64,000 nucleotides of DNA from Lachnospiraceae bacterium (GTDB taxonomy: Bacteria > Bacillota > Clostridia > Lachnospirales > Lachnospiraceae). The notes below the pieces were generated by a model, which worked only from the letters and a program-made list of their open reading frames with translations, ran no database searches and was not told the origin of the DNA. Of this stretch, positions 19,646 through 24,865 are shown piece after piece. The DNA lies in contig JAFSTX010000059.1 of the NCBI GenBank assembly GCA_017445585.1, forward strand, positions 1 through 64,000, written 5' to 3'. Position 1 is the first letter of the stretch; every line of letters starts with the position of its first letter. The translations under genes and the position numbers were made by a program.

Positions 19646-19930
19646 ATGGAGAATAGAACTATCAACATTGACCATCAGCTTCAGAAGACCGGGACATTGG
19701 TTTACATTGATACGACAAAGACCTATGCCGGTACCAGAGTGATTCCGATGCAGGACGATGTGTATGAAGCATTTGAGCGCATTCTTGCCAGAAGGCCGAA
19801 GCTGAAGGTGGAGCCGGAGATTTCCGGGTACTCCGGATTCCTTTGGTTCGATAAGGATGGAAAGCCGATGGTGGCGATGCACTGGGAGAAGTGCTTCCAG
19901 CATGCGGTGGAGAAGACTGCTTATGCTTAA
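19646..19930 (+). pseudogene. Internal fragment of a tyrosine recombinase (integrase)
   Basis: The frame encodes NRTINIDHQLQKTGTLVYID, then TYAGTRVIPMQDDVYEAF and GKPMVAMHWEKCFQHAVEK. This matches the region between the first catalytic arginine and the HxxR box of Tn916-type integrases. The catalytic R, HxxR and Y boxes are all missing and both ends are cut. It is a relic of an integrative element in this island. Confidence 0.8.
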
Positions 19931-20081
19931 GTGGCCTTAACTACCAACAGACAAACCCGCCGCGGAATGTCAAGAAGATACGTGTTACGATGTATGACTT
20001 GACTTTTTCGAGTGGGTTTGCTATTTGCAACATTTTTCGGTATAAAATGTCGGCTTATATGTCGGGTAAAAATATTATTGA

Positions 20082-20110
20082 TTGATTTTCGGCGGTTTAA
20101 CGCTTATAAT
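20082..20110 (+). promoter_or_regulatory. Promoter for the HTH/PDDEXK pair
   Basis: TTGATT (20082-20087) and a perfect TATAAT (20105-20110) are separated by 17 bases, 40 bases before the HTH start codon. Confidence 0.8.
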
Positions 20111-20150
20111 TATAAATGGCGTTGTTGTGCGTTCTGATAGGAGAAAATAC

Positions 20151-20339
20151 ATGGATTATATGACAGTAAAAGAAGCTGCAAAGAAATGGAATCTTTCTGA
20201 GAGAAGATTGCAGACAATGTGCAATGAGAACATGATTGAAGGCGTAGTTAAATTTGGACACGCATGGGCCATTCCCGCAAATGCGGTGAAACCGGGAGAT
20301 AAACGAATTAAATCGGGTAAATATATTAAGTCCAAATAA
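20151..20339 (+). CDS. Small helix-turn-helix DNA-binding protein
   Basis: The 62-residue protein begins MDYMTVKEAAKKWNLSERRL, a MerR/excisionase-type helix-turn-helix, and continues with a wing-like VVKFGHAWAIPANAVKPG. Such proteins act as excisionases or small regulators. AGGAG lies seven bases before ATG, and the promoter at 20082-20110 fits this start. It precedes the PDDEXK nuclease by about 100 bases and may regulate it, though the link is only positional. Confidence 0.8.
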   Translation: MDYMTVKEAAKKWNLSERRLQTMCNENMIEGVVKFGHAWAIPANAVKPGDKRIKSGKYIKSK

Positions 20340-20456
20340 TAGGACAGCGCTTTTGAGATAATTGGTAAGGATAGTTTTGGGACTTTATGAGTTTCTTGTG
20401 ACAATTCTGGAAACAATAAGGTCAGGACATAACAACGAGAAATGGGGAATAAGTAC

Positions 20457-21530
20457 ATGACAGACATTATCAAATCGAATGATGCATATAAAAAATGGAT
20501 TACACAGATTAAGGAGCAGTATCGTAAAAGCCAAATCAAAGCAGCTTCTTCTGTTAATCGTGAGATGTTGATGTTTTACTGGGAATTAGGTCGCAACCTC
20601 GAAATTGTCAAAGCACAATATGATTGGGGAAGCAAATTTTATAAGGTTATTAGCGATGATATCAAGAGGGAATTGCCAGATGTGAAATCTTTTTCTCCTA
20701 GGAATCTACTTTATATGCATCAGTTTTACAGGCTTTACTCTCTTGAAACAATTACGCCACAAGCTGTGGCGCAATTAGGGAGTGTTGAGATCACGCCACA
20801 AGCTGTGGCGCAAATGAATATTTTTATGATCCCGTGGGGGCATCATCGATTTATTATCGACAAGTGCAAGAATGATAGAGATAAGGCAGTTTTTTATGTT
20901 GAAAAGGCATTAGAAAACAATTGGTCTCGAGCGGTACTTCTTAATTTCCTTGATACAAACCTTTATGAGAGACAGGGAAAGGCAATATCTAATTTTGAAA
21001 AGACTCTACCGGCCCCGCAAAGTGACCTTGCGCAGGAAATGACAAAAGATCCATATAACTTTGATTTTCTTACTATGACTGAAGGCTATTATGAGAAGGA
21101 ATTGAAAGATGCTCTTATGAATAATATCTCGGACTTCCTGCTGGAACTAGGCAAGGGATTTGCTTTTGTTGGTCGGGAGTATCGCTTGGAAGTGGGCGAA
21201 ACGGAGCAATTTATTGATATGCTGTTTTATAATATTAACCTTCATTGCTATGTTGTGATTGAGGTTAAAATCAGAGACTTCGAGCCGGGAGACATGGGGC
21301 AGATTGGAACATATGTAGCTGCTGTGGATGGTATTCTTCGTAAGGAGGGGGATGCACCTACGGTTGGTTTGCTTGTATGCAAAAATAAGGACAATGTACT
21401 AGCGCAGTACGCAGTGAATAGTTCCAACGCACCGGTCGGGATATCGGAATATGAACTTTCAGAATTAATGCCAGAGGATTTCAAAGGGACATTGCCCTCA
21501 ATTGAGGAGATAGAACGGAAATTAAAATAA
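20457..21530 (+). CDS. PDDEXK nuclease of the YhcG/DUF1016 family
   Basis: The 357-residue protein has an N-terminal DUF1016 DNA-binding part (residues 1-170, with YWELGRNLEIVKAQYDWGSK and FSPRNLLYMHQFY). The C-terminal PD-(D/E)XK nuclease core shows FVGREYRLEVGETEQFIDM, with VIEVKIRDFEPGDMGQ carrying the ExK pair near residue 275. Family members accompany restriction and defence systems. The ATG at 20457 has GGGGA upstream; an in-frame ATG at 20442 is possible but lacks a good site. A 39-base duplication at 20754-20813 repeats TPQAVAQ twice in the linker. AT-rich composition supports acquisition by transfer. Confidence 0.88.
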   Translation: MTDIIKSNDAYKKWITQIKEQYRKSQIKAASSVNREMLMFYWELGRNLEIVKAQYDWGSKFYKVISDDIKRELPDVKSFSPRNLLYMHQFYRLYSLETITPQAVAQLGSVEITPQAVAQMNIFMIPWGHHRFIIDKCKNDRDKAVFYVEKALENNWSRAVLLNFLDTNLYERQGKAISNFEKTLPAPQSDLAQEMTKDPYNFDFLTMTEGYYEKELKDALMNNISDFLLELGKGFAFVGREYRLEVGETEQFIDMLFYNINLHCYVVIEVKIRDFEPGDMGQIGTYVAAVDGILRKEGDAPTVGLLVCKNKDNVLAQYAVNSSNAPVGISEYELSELMPEDFKGTLPSIEEIERKLK

Positions 21531-21683
21531 AGGAATTGAAAGACATTAACGTTTAGTTACACATGAATTAGATTTTAAAATTCAAAAAAAAGAGTATTGG
21601 TGGTGAGATAACTTGGCATTAGATATTTATATAGAGGACAAAAAAGTCTTGCTAGCGTATTATCCTGAGCAAATAGGCCCTGA

Positions 21684-21983
21684 TATCCAGACTTCATCGT
21701 AGTAAGAAGAGATGACCGTGTCGGATATGTGATCGATATCCTTGAGCCTCATAGTCCAGACTTTAAGGATAACCTTGGGAAAGCTAAGGGCTTTGCCGAA
21801 TATGCACGCCAGAATCCGGGTGTTGGAAGGATTCAGCTCATTCGCATGAGCAAGGACGCAATTGGAAAAAATCAGTTTAAGAGGCTGGATATGTACCGGA
21901 CTGCGATCCGAGATAAAGTTTCTCATGCAATCAACACTGATGAGTTGGATCATATTTTTGATATTGATGGGGTTATCGAGTAG
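21684..21983 (+). pseudogene. C-terminal fragment of a type III restriction/helicase subunit
   Basis: The frame encodes YPDFIVVRRDDRVGYVIDIL, then KAKGFAEYARQNPGVGRIQL and ends DELDHIFDIDGVIE. This matches the end of DEAD/DEAH-box type III restriction proteins, in the nuclease-side domain as I recall the family. A TGA precedes it and about 90 percent of the usual gene is gone. The preceding bases 21614-21703 hold a separate 29-codon frame of unknown meaning. With the integrase and nuclease it shows the island carried defence cargo. Confidence 0.7.
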
Positions 21984-22112
21984 TGAACAATTCTATATAG
22001 GGAAGAGATGACAAGGCTCTGCGCCAATGAATAGGCGAGTTGTACGGAAAAGAGATTTACCACTTTTTTACAACTTTTGCTGACAAAAATATGCCAATTT
22101 ATGAAAAATATG

Positions 22113-22198
22113 CCATGAAAGCGGAAAAATGAATATGCCGTTAGATGGCGTATAATACTGAAAAATCAAGGAACAACAGAGGTTTTTGGTTATGGTAA
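22113..22198 (+). repeat. Leader repeat, copy 2
   Basis: This is the second copy of the 15097-15182 leader. Here it retains a TATAAT at 22151-22156 and an AGAGG site before the ATG at 22192, so it looks like the original promoter and leader of a phosphatase gene. Three ATATGCC words lie at 22090, 22110 and 22134. Confidence 0.65.
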
Positions 22199-22230
22199 AG
22201 ATACTATTCCTCTGCCACGGCAGCATCTGA
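22192..22230 (+). pseudogene. 5' stub of a low-molecular-weight tyrosine phosphatase gene
   Basis: The stub reads MVKILFLCHGSI and then TGA. Its bases 22201-22229 match bases 24425-24453 of the intact phosphatase with a single difference. The stub keeps a promoter and leader while the intact copy has an unrelated upstream region. It marks the left junction of the AbiE-bearing segment. Confidence 0.85.
22201..22229 (+). repeat. Left copy of 29-bp att-like direct repeat
   Basis: It starts ATACTATTCCTCTGCC and ends CATCTG. The right copy is 24425-24453; only position 23 of the repeat differs (G here, A there). The repeats bracket about 2.2 kb holding the AbiE module, as expected for target or att duplication inside the phosphatase start. 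Confidence 0.8.
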
Positions 22231-22361
22231 CTAAATGGTCAAAAACCCAGTATTTATGCGGGGTTGCGGCCACCGGGGCAAGACTTTTATCAACGTTTTA
22301 TCAACATTAGGAAAAGAGCTTTTCGATGCGACAAACAACAGAATATATTTTTGCGAAGCTT

Positions 22362-22409
22362 GGCGCTTACCGATGAATTCATTGCGAATGAGAGGTAAGC
22401 GCCTTTTTT
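22362..22409 (+). terminator. Intrinsic terminator upstream of AbiE
   Basis: GGCGCTTACC pairs with GGTAAGCGCC (10 bp) followed by TTTTTT; the loop contains a smaller ATTCATT/AATGA hairpin. It insulates the AbiE promoter from upstream transcription. Confidence 0.88.
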
Positions 22410-22455
22410 GCTTTAAAACAGACATCCCCGTGCATCAGGTGTCCCTTACCTGCCG

Positions 22456-22571
22456 TGCAGTCTTGTCAAAAAATATAAGAAGTGACAAAACTGCACTTGA
22501 TACCGGCAACGTCATGCTGTATAGTATAGATGCAGTTACGTCATTTTTTTTAGAAAAGTGACAAAACTGCA
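22456..22571 (+). promoter_or_regulatory. abiE promoter flanked by two inverted-repeat operators
   Basis: Operator 1 is TGCAGTCTTGTCA (22456-22468) facing TGACAAAACTGCA (22483-22495). Operator 2 is TGCAGTTACGTCA (22531-22543) facing TGACAAAACTGCA (22559-22571). Between them lie TTGATA (22497-22502) and TATAGT (22520-22525) with a 17-base spacer. AbiEi antitoxins are known to repress their own promoter through two inverted repeats, so this arrangement fits negative autoregulation. Confidence 0.85.
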
Positions 22572-22594
22572 ATATACTGAAGGAGGTGGCAGGG

Positions 22595-23335
22595 ATGAAC
22601 GAACAAAATCAAATCACAATCTTCTTGAAAGAAAACCCGTCGTTTACCACAAAGGATTTTGTTGGGATGGTAAAAGAATCCCAGGCAGCTTATTCGGATC
22701 GGAAGGCATACCGCATGCTGCAGGTTCTTCAGGACGACGGGCAGATCATGAAGGTTGGACGCGGACATTATTCAAACACTTCCGTGAAATCGCCTTATCA
22801 TTTCAAGGCATCTTCCCTGATGAATGAGTTGGTCAGTTTGATTGATAAAGAGTATCCGCTGATCACATATCAGACATGGGAGCTTTATCAGTGGAATGAG
22901 TTCGTGAACCACCAGCTGGCACATAACTCTTACTTTATCGAAGTGGAAAGTGGGCTGGAGACAACAGTCTTTGATATGCTGCTGGAAAAGTATCCCCGGG
23001 TGCTGCTGGATCCTGATATGGAGGAGTATTACCGGTATCGCGCGGACGATATGATTATTGTCCAGAAATTGATATCCGGAGCTCCGGCACCACAACCTGG
23101 AAGCAAACAGGCTTCACTTGAAAAGTTGCTGGTGGACATATTCAGCCGGAAGCTGACAGGCCAGCTGATCGAGCGGGCTGAGTATCGACAGATATACGAA
23201 GATGCATTTGGCAAATATGCGATCAATGAATTGGCATTTTTTCGCTATGCTGGAAGGCGTCATCTTAAATCTGACATCCGAAAATTTATTGAGGATGAGA
23301 CAAATATAGAGCTGAGATCGGAGGAATGGACATGA
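22595..23335 (+). CDS. abiEi: AbiEi antitoxin and autorepressor
   Basis: The 246-residue protein is the antitoxin of a type IV AbiE toxin-antitoxin/abortive-infection system. An N-terminal winged-helix region (residues 1-65, FTTKDFVGMVKESQAAYSDR, then QDDGQIMKVGRGHY) should bind DNA. The rest is the antitoxin domain, with ITYQTWELYQWNEFVNHQ near residue 88. ATG at 22595 lies eight bases after AGGAGG; a GTG three codons upstream overlaps that site and is less likely. The stop overlaps the toxin start (ATGA), typical of toxin-antitoxin pairs. Two operators and a promoter immediately upstream support self-regulation. Confidence 0.9.
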   Translation: MNEQNQITIFLKENPSFTTKDFVGMVKESQAAYSDRKAYRMLQVLQDDGQIMKVGRGHYSNTSVKSPYHFKASSLMNELVSLIDKEYPLITYQTWELYQWNEFVNHQLAHNSYFIEVESGLETTVFDMLLEKYPRVLLDPDMEEYYRYRADDMIIVQKLISGAPAPQPGSKQASLEKLLVDIFSRKLTGQLIERAEYRQIYEDAFGKYAINELAFFRYAGRRHLKSDIRKFIEDETNIELRSEEWT

Positions 23336-24375
23336 TTGATAAGAAAATCTATGATCTTGACTATATTCGTGAATTGCAGGCGAGGTACAAGACAGATCCG
23401 GGCCTGTTGGAGAGGGTACTTTATGCATTTGGACTTCTTGAGGCGCTCGTTAAGGTAGGGATGAAGTTTACCTTTAAGGGCGGCACAAGCCTGATGCTCC
23501 TGTTGGATCATCCAATCAGGCTATCTACGGATATTGACATCATTGTGGATCCGGGGACTGATGTGGAGAGCTACATTGAGCAGGCGGGAACCATCTTTCC
23601 CTTCCTGCGAAAGGAAGAGGATATCCGTAAGGGACGGAACAATATAGAAAAACGCCACTTCAAATTTATCTACTATTCCCCCGTCCGACAGAGAGAGTTT
23701 TACATATTGCTGGATATTGTTTTTATGGAATCTCCGTATGACCAGGTTGTGACAAAGCCCATTCGTAATGATCTGCTTGTCACAGCTCCGGAAGATCTTG
23801 CGGTAACCATGCCAACGATGGAATGCATTCTGGGAGATAAGCTGACTGCTTTCGCCCCACATACCACAGGCATCCTGCTGGGGGCGGGAAAAGAACTGGA
23901 GATTGCCAAGCAAATGTTTGATGTAGCCACCTTGGCAGAGCGGATGCAGGATCAGAAGCAGTTTCGTGCGACCTACGACAGAGCCGTTATAGAAGAACTG
24001 GCTTTCCGGGGATTGAAATTGAAAAAAGAGATAGTTCTGAGAGACACCATCCGGGCCTGCATCAGCATTATAAGCCGTGGCGAATATGAAAAAGAGGACT
24101 ATGTGGAATATCTGAAGGGTATCCGCTCCCTGACGGATCATATTCTTGGGAAAAAATTCACACCGGAAATCGCTGCTGAGAAAGCATGTTCAGTGATGTG
24201 TCTTGCCGCCAGTGCTTTGACACAGACGGATTATCCGAAGATTGCGGATGCAGCAGGATATGCGAAAGAACGTCTCACTGGCGACCAATATAAGCGCCTC
24301 GCTTATGTCCAGAAGAGAAATATTGAAGCTTATGGCTATCTTGTGGAAGCTACAAGGATGCTCGAAGGTATTTAA
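23332..24375 (+). CDS. abiEii: AbiEii nucleotidyltransferase toxin
   Basis: The 347-residue protein is a DNA polymerase beta-type nucleotidyltransferase toxin that arrests growth on phage infection. Motif I is FKGGTSLMLL near residue 47 with STDIDIIVDP about 15 residues later (the two metal aspartates). A conserved lysine segment, CILGDKLTAFAPHTTGI, lies near residue 165. The known targets of family toxins include GTP binding or tRNA 3' ends; the substrate here is not visible. ATG at 23332 overlaps the antitoxin stop and has GGAGG seven bases upstream. The 29-bp right repeat begins 49 bases after the stop. Confidence 0.9.
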   Translation: MIDKKIYDLDYIRELQARYKTDPGLLERVLYAFGLLEALVKVGMKFTFKGGTSLMLLLDHPIRLSTDIDIIVDPGTDVESYIEQAGTIFPFLRKEEDIRKGRNNIEKRHFKFIYYSPVRQREFYILLDIVFMESPYDQVVTKPIRNDLLVTAPEDLAVTMPTMECILGDKLTAFAPHTTGILLGAGKELEIAKQMFDVATLAERMQDQKQFRATYDRAVIEELAFRGLKLKKEIVLRDTIRACISIISRGEYEKEDYVEYLKGIRSLTDHILGKKFTPEIAAEKACSVMCLAASALTQTDYPKIADAAGYAKERLTGDQYKRLAYVQKRNIEAYGYLVEATRMLEGI

Positions 24376-24406
24376 TGTTTATTACATTACATATCCCGAT
24401 TAAGTT

Positions 24407-24865
24407 ATGCAAAGAATGATAAAAATACTATTCCTCTGCCACGGCAACATCTGCCGAAGCCCCATGGCGGAGTTTATTTTAAAAAAGATGGTGCGTGATG
24501 CCGGCTGTGAGGACCGGTTTGAGATCGCGTCCGCGGCGGTAAGCCGCGAAGAGATCGGCAACGACATCTATCCGCCGGCCAGACAGAAGCTGCGCGAGGA
24601 GAACGTGCCCTTTGACAGACGCAGAGCGCATCTGGTCACGGAGAGAGAAATGCGGGAGAGCGATCTTGTCGTTATCATGGATTCAAGCAATGAACGCTGG
24701 CTGCATAGACTCTTTGGAGACAGATATGATTCAAAGATCCGCTATCTGATGGATTTCGCCGGAGAACGCCGGGACGTCAGCGACCCCTGGTATTCGGGTG
24801 ATTTTGAGCGTACCTATCAGGACGTTAAAACAGGCTGCAGAGCGCTGCTTGACCGGCTGGGCTGA
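24407..24865 (+). CDS. Low-molecular-weight protein-tyrosine phosphatase
   Basis: The 152-residue cytoplasmic phosphatase has the P-loop LCHGNICRSPMAEF (catalytic Cys11, Arg17) and the general acid aspartate in VSDPWYSGDF near residue 125. Bacterial members often control polysaccharide export kinases. Start is uncertain: ATG at 24407 or the in-frame ATG at 24416, and neither has a clear ribosome binding site. The likely reason is that the AbiE segment displaced the original leader, which survives at 22113-22198 in front of a 12-codon stub. Expression may therefore be altered. Confidence 0.92.
   Translation: MQRMIKILFLCHGNICRSPMAEFILKKMVRDAGCEDRFEIASAAVSREEIGNDIYPPARQKLREENVPFDRRRAHLVTEREMRESDLVVIMDSSNERWLHRLFGDRYDSKIRYLMDFAGERRDVSDPWYSGDFERTYQDVKTGCRALLDRLG
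24425..24453 (+). repeat. Right copy of 29-bp att-like direct repeat
   Basis: Matches 22201-22229 with one difference and lies inside the phosphatase P-loop codons. Confidence 0.8.

Follow-up and report, generated by a model that had tools for sequence, protein, structure and literature searches.

A probable CIME-like remnant carrying AbiE genes at the 5' end of a low-molecular-weight protein tyrosine phosphatase gene in a Lachnospiraceae bacterium

CIMEs are deletion derivatives of elements that have kept their attachment sites and lost their recombination and transfer genes, and in streptococci include classical CIMEs of 1.2-13 kb with cargo and microCIMEs of 130-220 bp (PMC7563491, PMC5704250). 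Islands and prophages at dusA integrate in the 5' end of a conserved gene (PMC4482086), and a pair of the AbiEii type (DUF1814) can stabilise a mobile element, as shown for MosAT on SXT (PMC2654960) and proposed for AbiE on ICESa2603 (PMC3985639). Here, we describe a 2.2-kb block of AbiE genes from a Lachnospiraceae bacterium (assembly GCA_017445585.1; the window is the whole stretch analysed, 64,000 nucleotides of contig JAFSTX010000059.1), which is very probably a CIME-like remnant of an integrase element (element B) at the 5' end of a low-molecular-weight protein tyrosine phosphatase (LMW-PTP) gene, in tandem to a second element (element A).

Like the streptococcal CIMEs and microCIMEs, the window block (2.2 kb) is a remnant without integrase or transfer genes that is flanked by attachment sites and lies next to a tandem element; unlike the CIMEs, it has the 5' end of a phosphatase gene as its target, a right attachment arm that is largely deleted, and a parent whose status as an ICE or IME is unproven. 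The block fits a CIME because the integrase and the element body are missing, and with most of the right arm lost, its cis-mobilization appears doubtful. With the dusA elements (PMC4482086) it shares a dedicated tyrosine recombinase family, a gene whose 5' end is replaced by element sequence, and very diverse cargo, whereas the dusA elements are proteobacterial and use another gene and another integrase family. SXT/R391 ICEs likewise insert near the 5' end of a coding gene, prfC for SXT (PMC2654960). Since AbiE-type pairs stabilise mobile elements (PMC2654960, PMC3985639), such a role could be the reason why AbiE stayed in the window; in contrast to MosAT on SXT and AbiE on ICESa2603, the window AbiE remains after the element body has gone, and its parent class is not proven conjugative.

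Phosphatase stub, intact phosphatase and AbiE genes

The block and its junctions comprise the following features:
22192..22230 (+), phosphatase stub of 12 codons plus TGA, left attachment junction of element B, with the core TGCCACGGC at 22213-22221
22222..22430 (+), left end of element B, AGCATCTGACTAAATGG...AAAACCCAGTATTTATGCGG...TTTTATCAACGTTTTATCAAC, shared with nine GTDB and three viral contigs
22455..22571 (+), AbiE control region, with a promoter-like site between two inverted repeats
22595..23335 (+), AbiEi antitoxin-type protein, 246 aa, DUF6577 (PADLOC AbiEi, 3.5e-86)
23332..24375 (+), AbiEii nucleotidyltransferase-type toxin, 347 aa, PF08843 (PADLOC AbiEii, 1.1e-120)
24376..24395 (+), element B remnant downstream of AbiE, ending after CCCGATTA (alignment with L132 and L135)
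24396..24415 (+), right-end leader remnant of about 20 bp, AGTTATGCAAAGA, ribosome site lost (compare GAGGTTATGCAACG in G145, G010 and G032)
24416..24865 (+), intact LMW-PTP, attachment target and right attachment junction, with the core at 24437-24445

An earlier note on this DNA described a 12-codon stub with an intact LMW-PTP gene downstream, and both are present: the stub (22192-22230) reads MVKILFLCHGSI* and the intact protein begins MIKILFLCHGNICRSP, with a start that alignment to relatives places at 24416 instead of the 24407 given before. Stub and intact gene form a 43-nt direct repeat of 88% identity, the top repeat family in the 10 kb scanned, and are the only two copies of the repeat in the whole 2.44-Mb genome. 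Within it, 22201-22229 and 24425-24453 agree at 28 of 29 bases, the one mismatch being as previously described; this mismatch (AGC/AAC) represents element versus host attachment-site sequence, because AGCATCTGAC is the constant element end in every related left junction. Two ancestral phosphatase genes or a local duplication, with AbiE landing between the copies and one of them destroyed, would also account for a 43-bp repeat at 88%, and the probability of such a history is next to negligible, as the homology ends at the element end, unrelated contigs with different leaders have the same sequence behind the stub, and no further LMW-PTP codons lie between stub and intact gene.

Codons 4-9 are identical in the stub and the intact gene, and the tandem copies in L135 are less alike; recombination between the two copies could also explain this identity. 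These shared codons and a block without an integrase would suit a locus built by homologous recombination or gene conversion, and assemblers can be misled by short repeats, so that the repeat might be an artefact. Both possibilities are highly unlikely, given that stub and AbiE occur together in independent assemblies (L132, L135 and L136), AbiE with its flank recurs in L132 and L135, and the order stub, element, phosphatase is repeated in many genomes.

Between the junctions lie only the AbiEi and AbiEii genes, with no integrase, relaxase or transfer genes; the missing integrase had been noticed before, and integrases of the LMW-PTP-adjoining family are also absent from the genome at E<=1e-60. 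The two genes adjoin, overlapping by ATGA, and AbiEii has a nucleotidyltransferase domain and the motif GGTSL...DID. The promoter-like site TTGATA-17-TATAGT (22497-22525) has inverted repeats on both sides (22455-22468/22483-22496 and 22531-22548/22554-22571), which in this predicted promoter region are candidates for AbiEi autorepression; inverted repeats in the promoter region are known from AbiE autoregulation (PMC3985639, PMC7319586). The bicistronic AbiEi-AbiEii arrangement, the promoter-region inverted repeats and the AbiEii nucleotidyltransferase domain are shared with AbiE type IV systems (PMC3985639), from which the window pair differs in that its AbiEi matches DUF6577 in Pfam and its activity is putative.

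Ends, relatives and probable deletion of element B

Directly behind the window stub follows AGCATCTGACTAAATGGTCAAAAACCCAGTATTTATGCGG...TTTTATCAACGTTTTATCAAC. Phosphatase stubs are followed by the same left end in nine GTDB contigs, whose titles read Lachnospiraceae, Eubacterium or Clostridiales and several of which are rumen-derived, and in viral contigs L086 and L124; the sequence before the stub differs among them. The earlier proposal that the AbiE block inserted into the LMW-PTP 5' end and rebuilt the gene agrees with this fusion of the left end to stubs in nine contigs; the block is flanked by attachment junctions, the left one as in these contigs and the right one marked by the core repeated at the phosphatase. 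Because the same left end also follows TGCCACGGC at the end of an unrelated phage gene that is not a phosphatase (L130:10070-10110), we place the crossover at about TGCCACGGC; the L130 junction itself probably reflects either attachment at a secondary site or chimerism of the contig.

The motif AAAACCCAGTATTTATGCGG alone is unspecific, so the longer left end was used for searches. The motif (window 22242-22261) has exact copies in 68 viral-contig stretches (L040-L130) and near-exact ones in many family genomes; most lie away from phosphatases, and often GTTTGCGGG and short repeats follow. Few of its loci have an integrase recognisable by tblastn, and the ends of elements or phages may have this motif in common.

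The closest relative of the block lies in a larger element: in L132 the same left end and AbiE (97.0% over 2162 bp) are followed by DUF5688 and a replication-initiator-type gene, and from such an element the window block would derive by deletion. In L124 and L131 the same left end is followed by AbiE deleted down to its last codons, and then by DUF5688, an HTH_36 protein, a DnaC-like loader, ParA and ParB. This loss of AbiE within the parent element, with the promoter region and the 3' end left, has the same layout in L124, L086/L137, L131, L133 and L139. The parent of element B has DUF5688, replication and ParA/ParB genes, and its contigs stop before any transfer genes. Among 397 family genomes, parent-element genes have one relative at 81%, on a contig that stops close by, and three weaker relatives; a pattern search of the viral contigs returned no AbiEii relatives. 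No complete element B with a right end and conjugation genes occurs in the contigs examined, and the ORFs tested in the G115 region include no transfer genes, so element B is not called a proven ICE.

The window-L132 alignment stops at 24395, after CCCGATTA. The next 20 bases (24396-24415) resemble the leader end GAGGTTATGCAACG-ATGATAAAA of G145, G010 and G032, cut just 3' of the ribosome site. The intact LMW-PTP gene has neither leader nor ribosome site, as was observed before, and the alignments put a deletion at 24395/24396. In complete elements elsewhere, the right end supplies its own leader, ribosome site and start codon; the earlier idea that the AbiE block cut the gene from its promoter holds for the loss of leader and ribosome site, and the cause of this loss would be the deletion and not the integration. 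The junction at 24395/24396 has no second copy in the viral contigs and is known from this assembly only.

A second unit with the order stub, AbiE, phosphatase is present in another species (L135, uncultured Lachnospiraceae RUG304), with a different breakpoint and an intact, duplicated leader of ~230 bp. The AbiE block of the window is closer to that of L132 (97.0%) than to that of L135 (93.4%), and since the breakpoints differ as well, the sequences point to separate deletions for the window and L135 blocks. A compact non-autonomous mobile unit, made of left end, AbiE and right end and using the integrases of other elements, would find an example in L135 with its full right-end leader, and action in trans is plausible where related integrases and tandem elements are common. 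We consider such a unit improbable, since the window block is nearer to the larger element of L132 and differs from L135 in its breakpoint, has lost the right-end leader in which integrase arm sites would be expected, and sits in a genome without an integrase of the LMW-PTP-adjoining family. The preferred reading remains a CIME-like remnant of element B.

Element A and the leader before the stub

Upstream of the stub, the following features are assigned to element A:
19646..19915 (+), PTP-type tyrosine integrase fragment of element A, matching aa 254-344 of the L086 integrase (57% identical)
20082..20339 (+), small helix-turn-helix protein, cargo inside the broken element A integrase (HTH_59/HTH_17, below the curated cut-off)
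20442..21530 (+), DUF1016/YhcG PDDEXK nuclease, cargo (PADLOC candidate PDC-S02)
22002..22034 (+), last element A integrase codons, EEMTRLCANE* (aligned with the L148 integrase end KEEMTRLCAGE*)
22035..22191 (+), leader, right end of element A, with AAAAATATGCCA twice and a ribosome-site-like AGAGG (82% identity to the leader of a genus relative)

The window has no intact integrase, only the fragments at 19646-19915 and 22002-22034. These two pieces are separated by the nuclease and helix-turn-helix genes together with a gene fragment at 21729-21983 (window 19916-22001). In L141 and L142, the cargo that separates stub from phosphatase includes DUF1016 homologues (29-41% identical). Because the integrase end lies directly upstream of the stub leader and a further integrase fragment lies at 19646-19915, we take this leader to be the right end of the earlier element A. 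We dropped the idea of a host promoter as the source of the leader, since integrase codons immediately precede it and L135 has the leader in duplicate. The stub had been credited with a promoter and a leader, of which the leader is upheld and the promoter is not, as 5 promoter-like matches were observed in the stretch against 4.9 expected by chance, even though 22151-22156 reads TATAAT.

The earlier note predicted an allele that has no AbiE and in which the leader runs straight into the phosphatase, and this was found in part. Window 22001-22229 is 82% identical over 229 bp to the integrase end, leader and first phosphatase codons of L148 (G005, a genus relative), where that leader is joined directly to an intact phosphatase with no AbiE. 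The L148 phosphatase is only 43% identical to the window LMW-PTP, so G005 provides an allele from within the genus, short of an empty site at the strain level.

The LMW-PTP 5' end as a recurrent attachment site

Integrases of this family have Tn916-type and tyrosine recombinase domains and adjoin LMW-PTP. The integrase of prophage L086, with a Tn916-type DNA-binding (PF02920) and a tyrosine recombinase (PF00589) domain, was used as query against 120 family genomes. All 18 fetched loci with integrases at least 50% identical have these at most 2.2 kb upstream of an LMW-PTP gene, which lies directly downstream on the same strand in 16 of the 18 and about 2 kb downstream in the other two (G129 and G052); integrases less than 50% identical adjoin LMW-PTP in 4/12 loci. 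On the integrase tree the phosphatase label is clustered, with 3 changes versus 8.0 in shuffles (0/500 as low). Complete elements with stub, integrase and phosphatase are present in five genomes, with sizes of 9.1 kb (G145, G032), 5.4 kb (G010), 11.3 kb (G058) and 10.2 kb (G013, in tandem with another element and with a MobA/MobL-like protein recognised by eye). The P-loop, held in the earlier note to be an unusual integration target, is a recurrent site in this bacterial family, judging from these complete elements and the 18/18 integrase loci.

G145 and G032 belong to different genera; their elements share 98.1% identity over 9.3 kb and past the core are joined to different phosphatases; on this comparison, the element is a recent transfer between genera. 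Look-alikes of an ABC transporter, a response regulator and a sensor kinase are seen in this element (L193-L195 in G145, L204-L205 in G032). In G007 (L199, G007:C29) integrase, stub and intact phosphatase stand in order, with a stub-gene distance of 156 bp, which is microCIME size, and more stub/phosphatase pairs are present in L141-L143. L124:4395-8700 contains, in tandem, a prophage integrase, a TIR-TPR gene, a phosphatase stub and the left end of a second element, and by this layout is a case of two elements accreted at one phosphatase. Defence-type cargo at the site includes AbiE, DUF1016 nucleases, TIR-TPR, a type IIG restriction enzyme, Fic and an LmuB-like ATPase, with ABC transporter and two-component genes (by eye from sequence) also among the cargo; this list is a sample of the examined elements and no census. 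The literature searched, with its limited coverage of subscription journals, yielded no report of LMW-PTP as an attachment site, and the LMW-PTP 5' end is a recurrent insertion site that is apparently undescribed, the event itself being of a known kind.

From the junctions, the relatives, the complete elements elsewhere and the AbiE-free allele with the same leader, all read from sequence, we infer the following history. The attachment site would be the LMW-PTP 5' end at the P-loop codons around TGCCACGGC, used by Tn916-type tyrosine recombinases that prophages and integrative elements of this bacterial family carry. Integration by a presumably active integrase would join the old leader and codons 1-10 to the element left end, giving a stub with an early stop, and would fuse the remainder of the phosphatase to the element right end, which provides a leader, start codon and codons 1-9 of its own. 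Element A would have integrated first and decayed to integrase fragments, nuclease cargo and leader; the larger element B, with AbiE at its left end, would then have integrated by accretion downstream of A at the same site. Loss of its body, integrase and right-end leader, probably by deletion, would have left the order left junction, AbiE, right junction, with AbiE kept perhaps by addiction or phage defence and the LMW-PTP transcript likely dependent on AbiE read-through. The non-autonomous or homologous mechanism once suggested gives way to a site-specific integrase element of which 2.2 kb are left, and so no new mechanism is needed.

A bolder reading, in which LMW-PTP is a dedicated, unnamed hotspot, the elements tune phosphatase expression, and non-autonomous defence or addiction cassettes in the form of short AbiE units move between such sites, is tentative and on the whole unlikely. 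There, the elements would supply leader, start codon and first codons, and integration, excision and decay would tune the phosphatase. With the CIME-like remnant as the preferred reading, what looked like an odd repeat becomes an instance of a rule: in this bacterial family, prophages, mobilizable-type elements and larger integrative elements land again and again at the start of the phosphatase gene. Much of the examined cargo matches defence models, and a known site lets elements be delimited and their cargo harvested. The new leader that each element brings to the phosphatase also raises the question of control of tyrosine dephosphorylation by mobile DNA.
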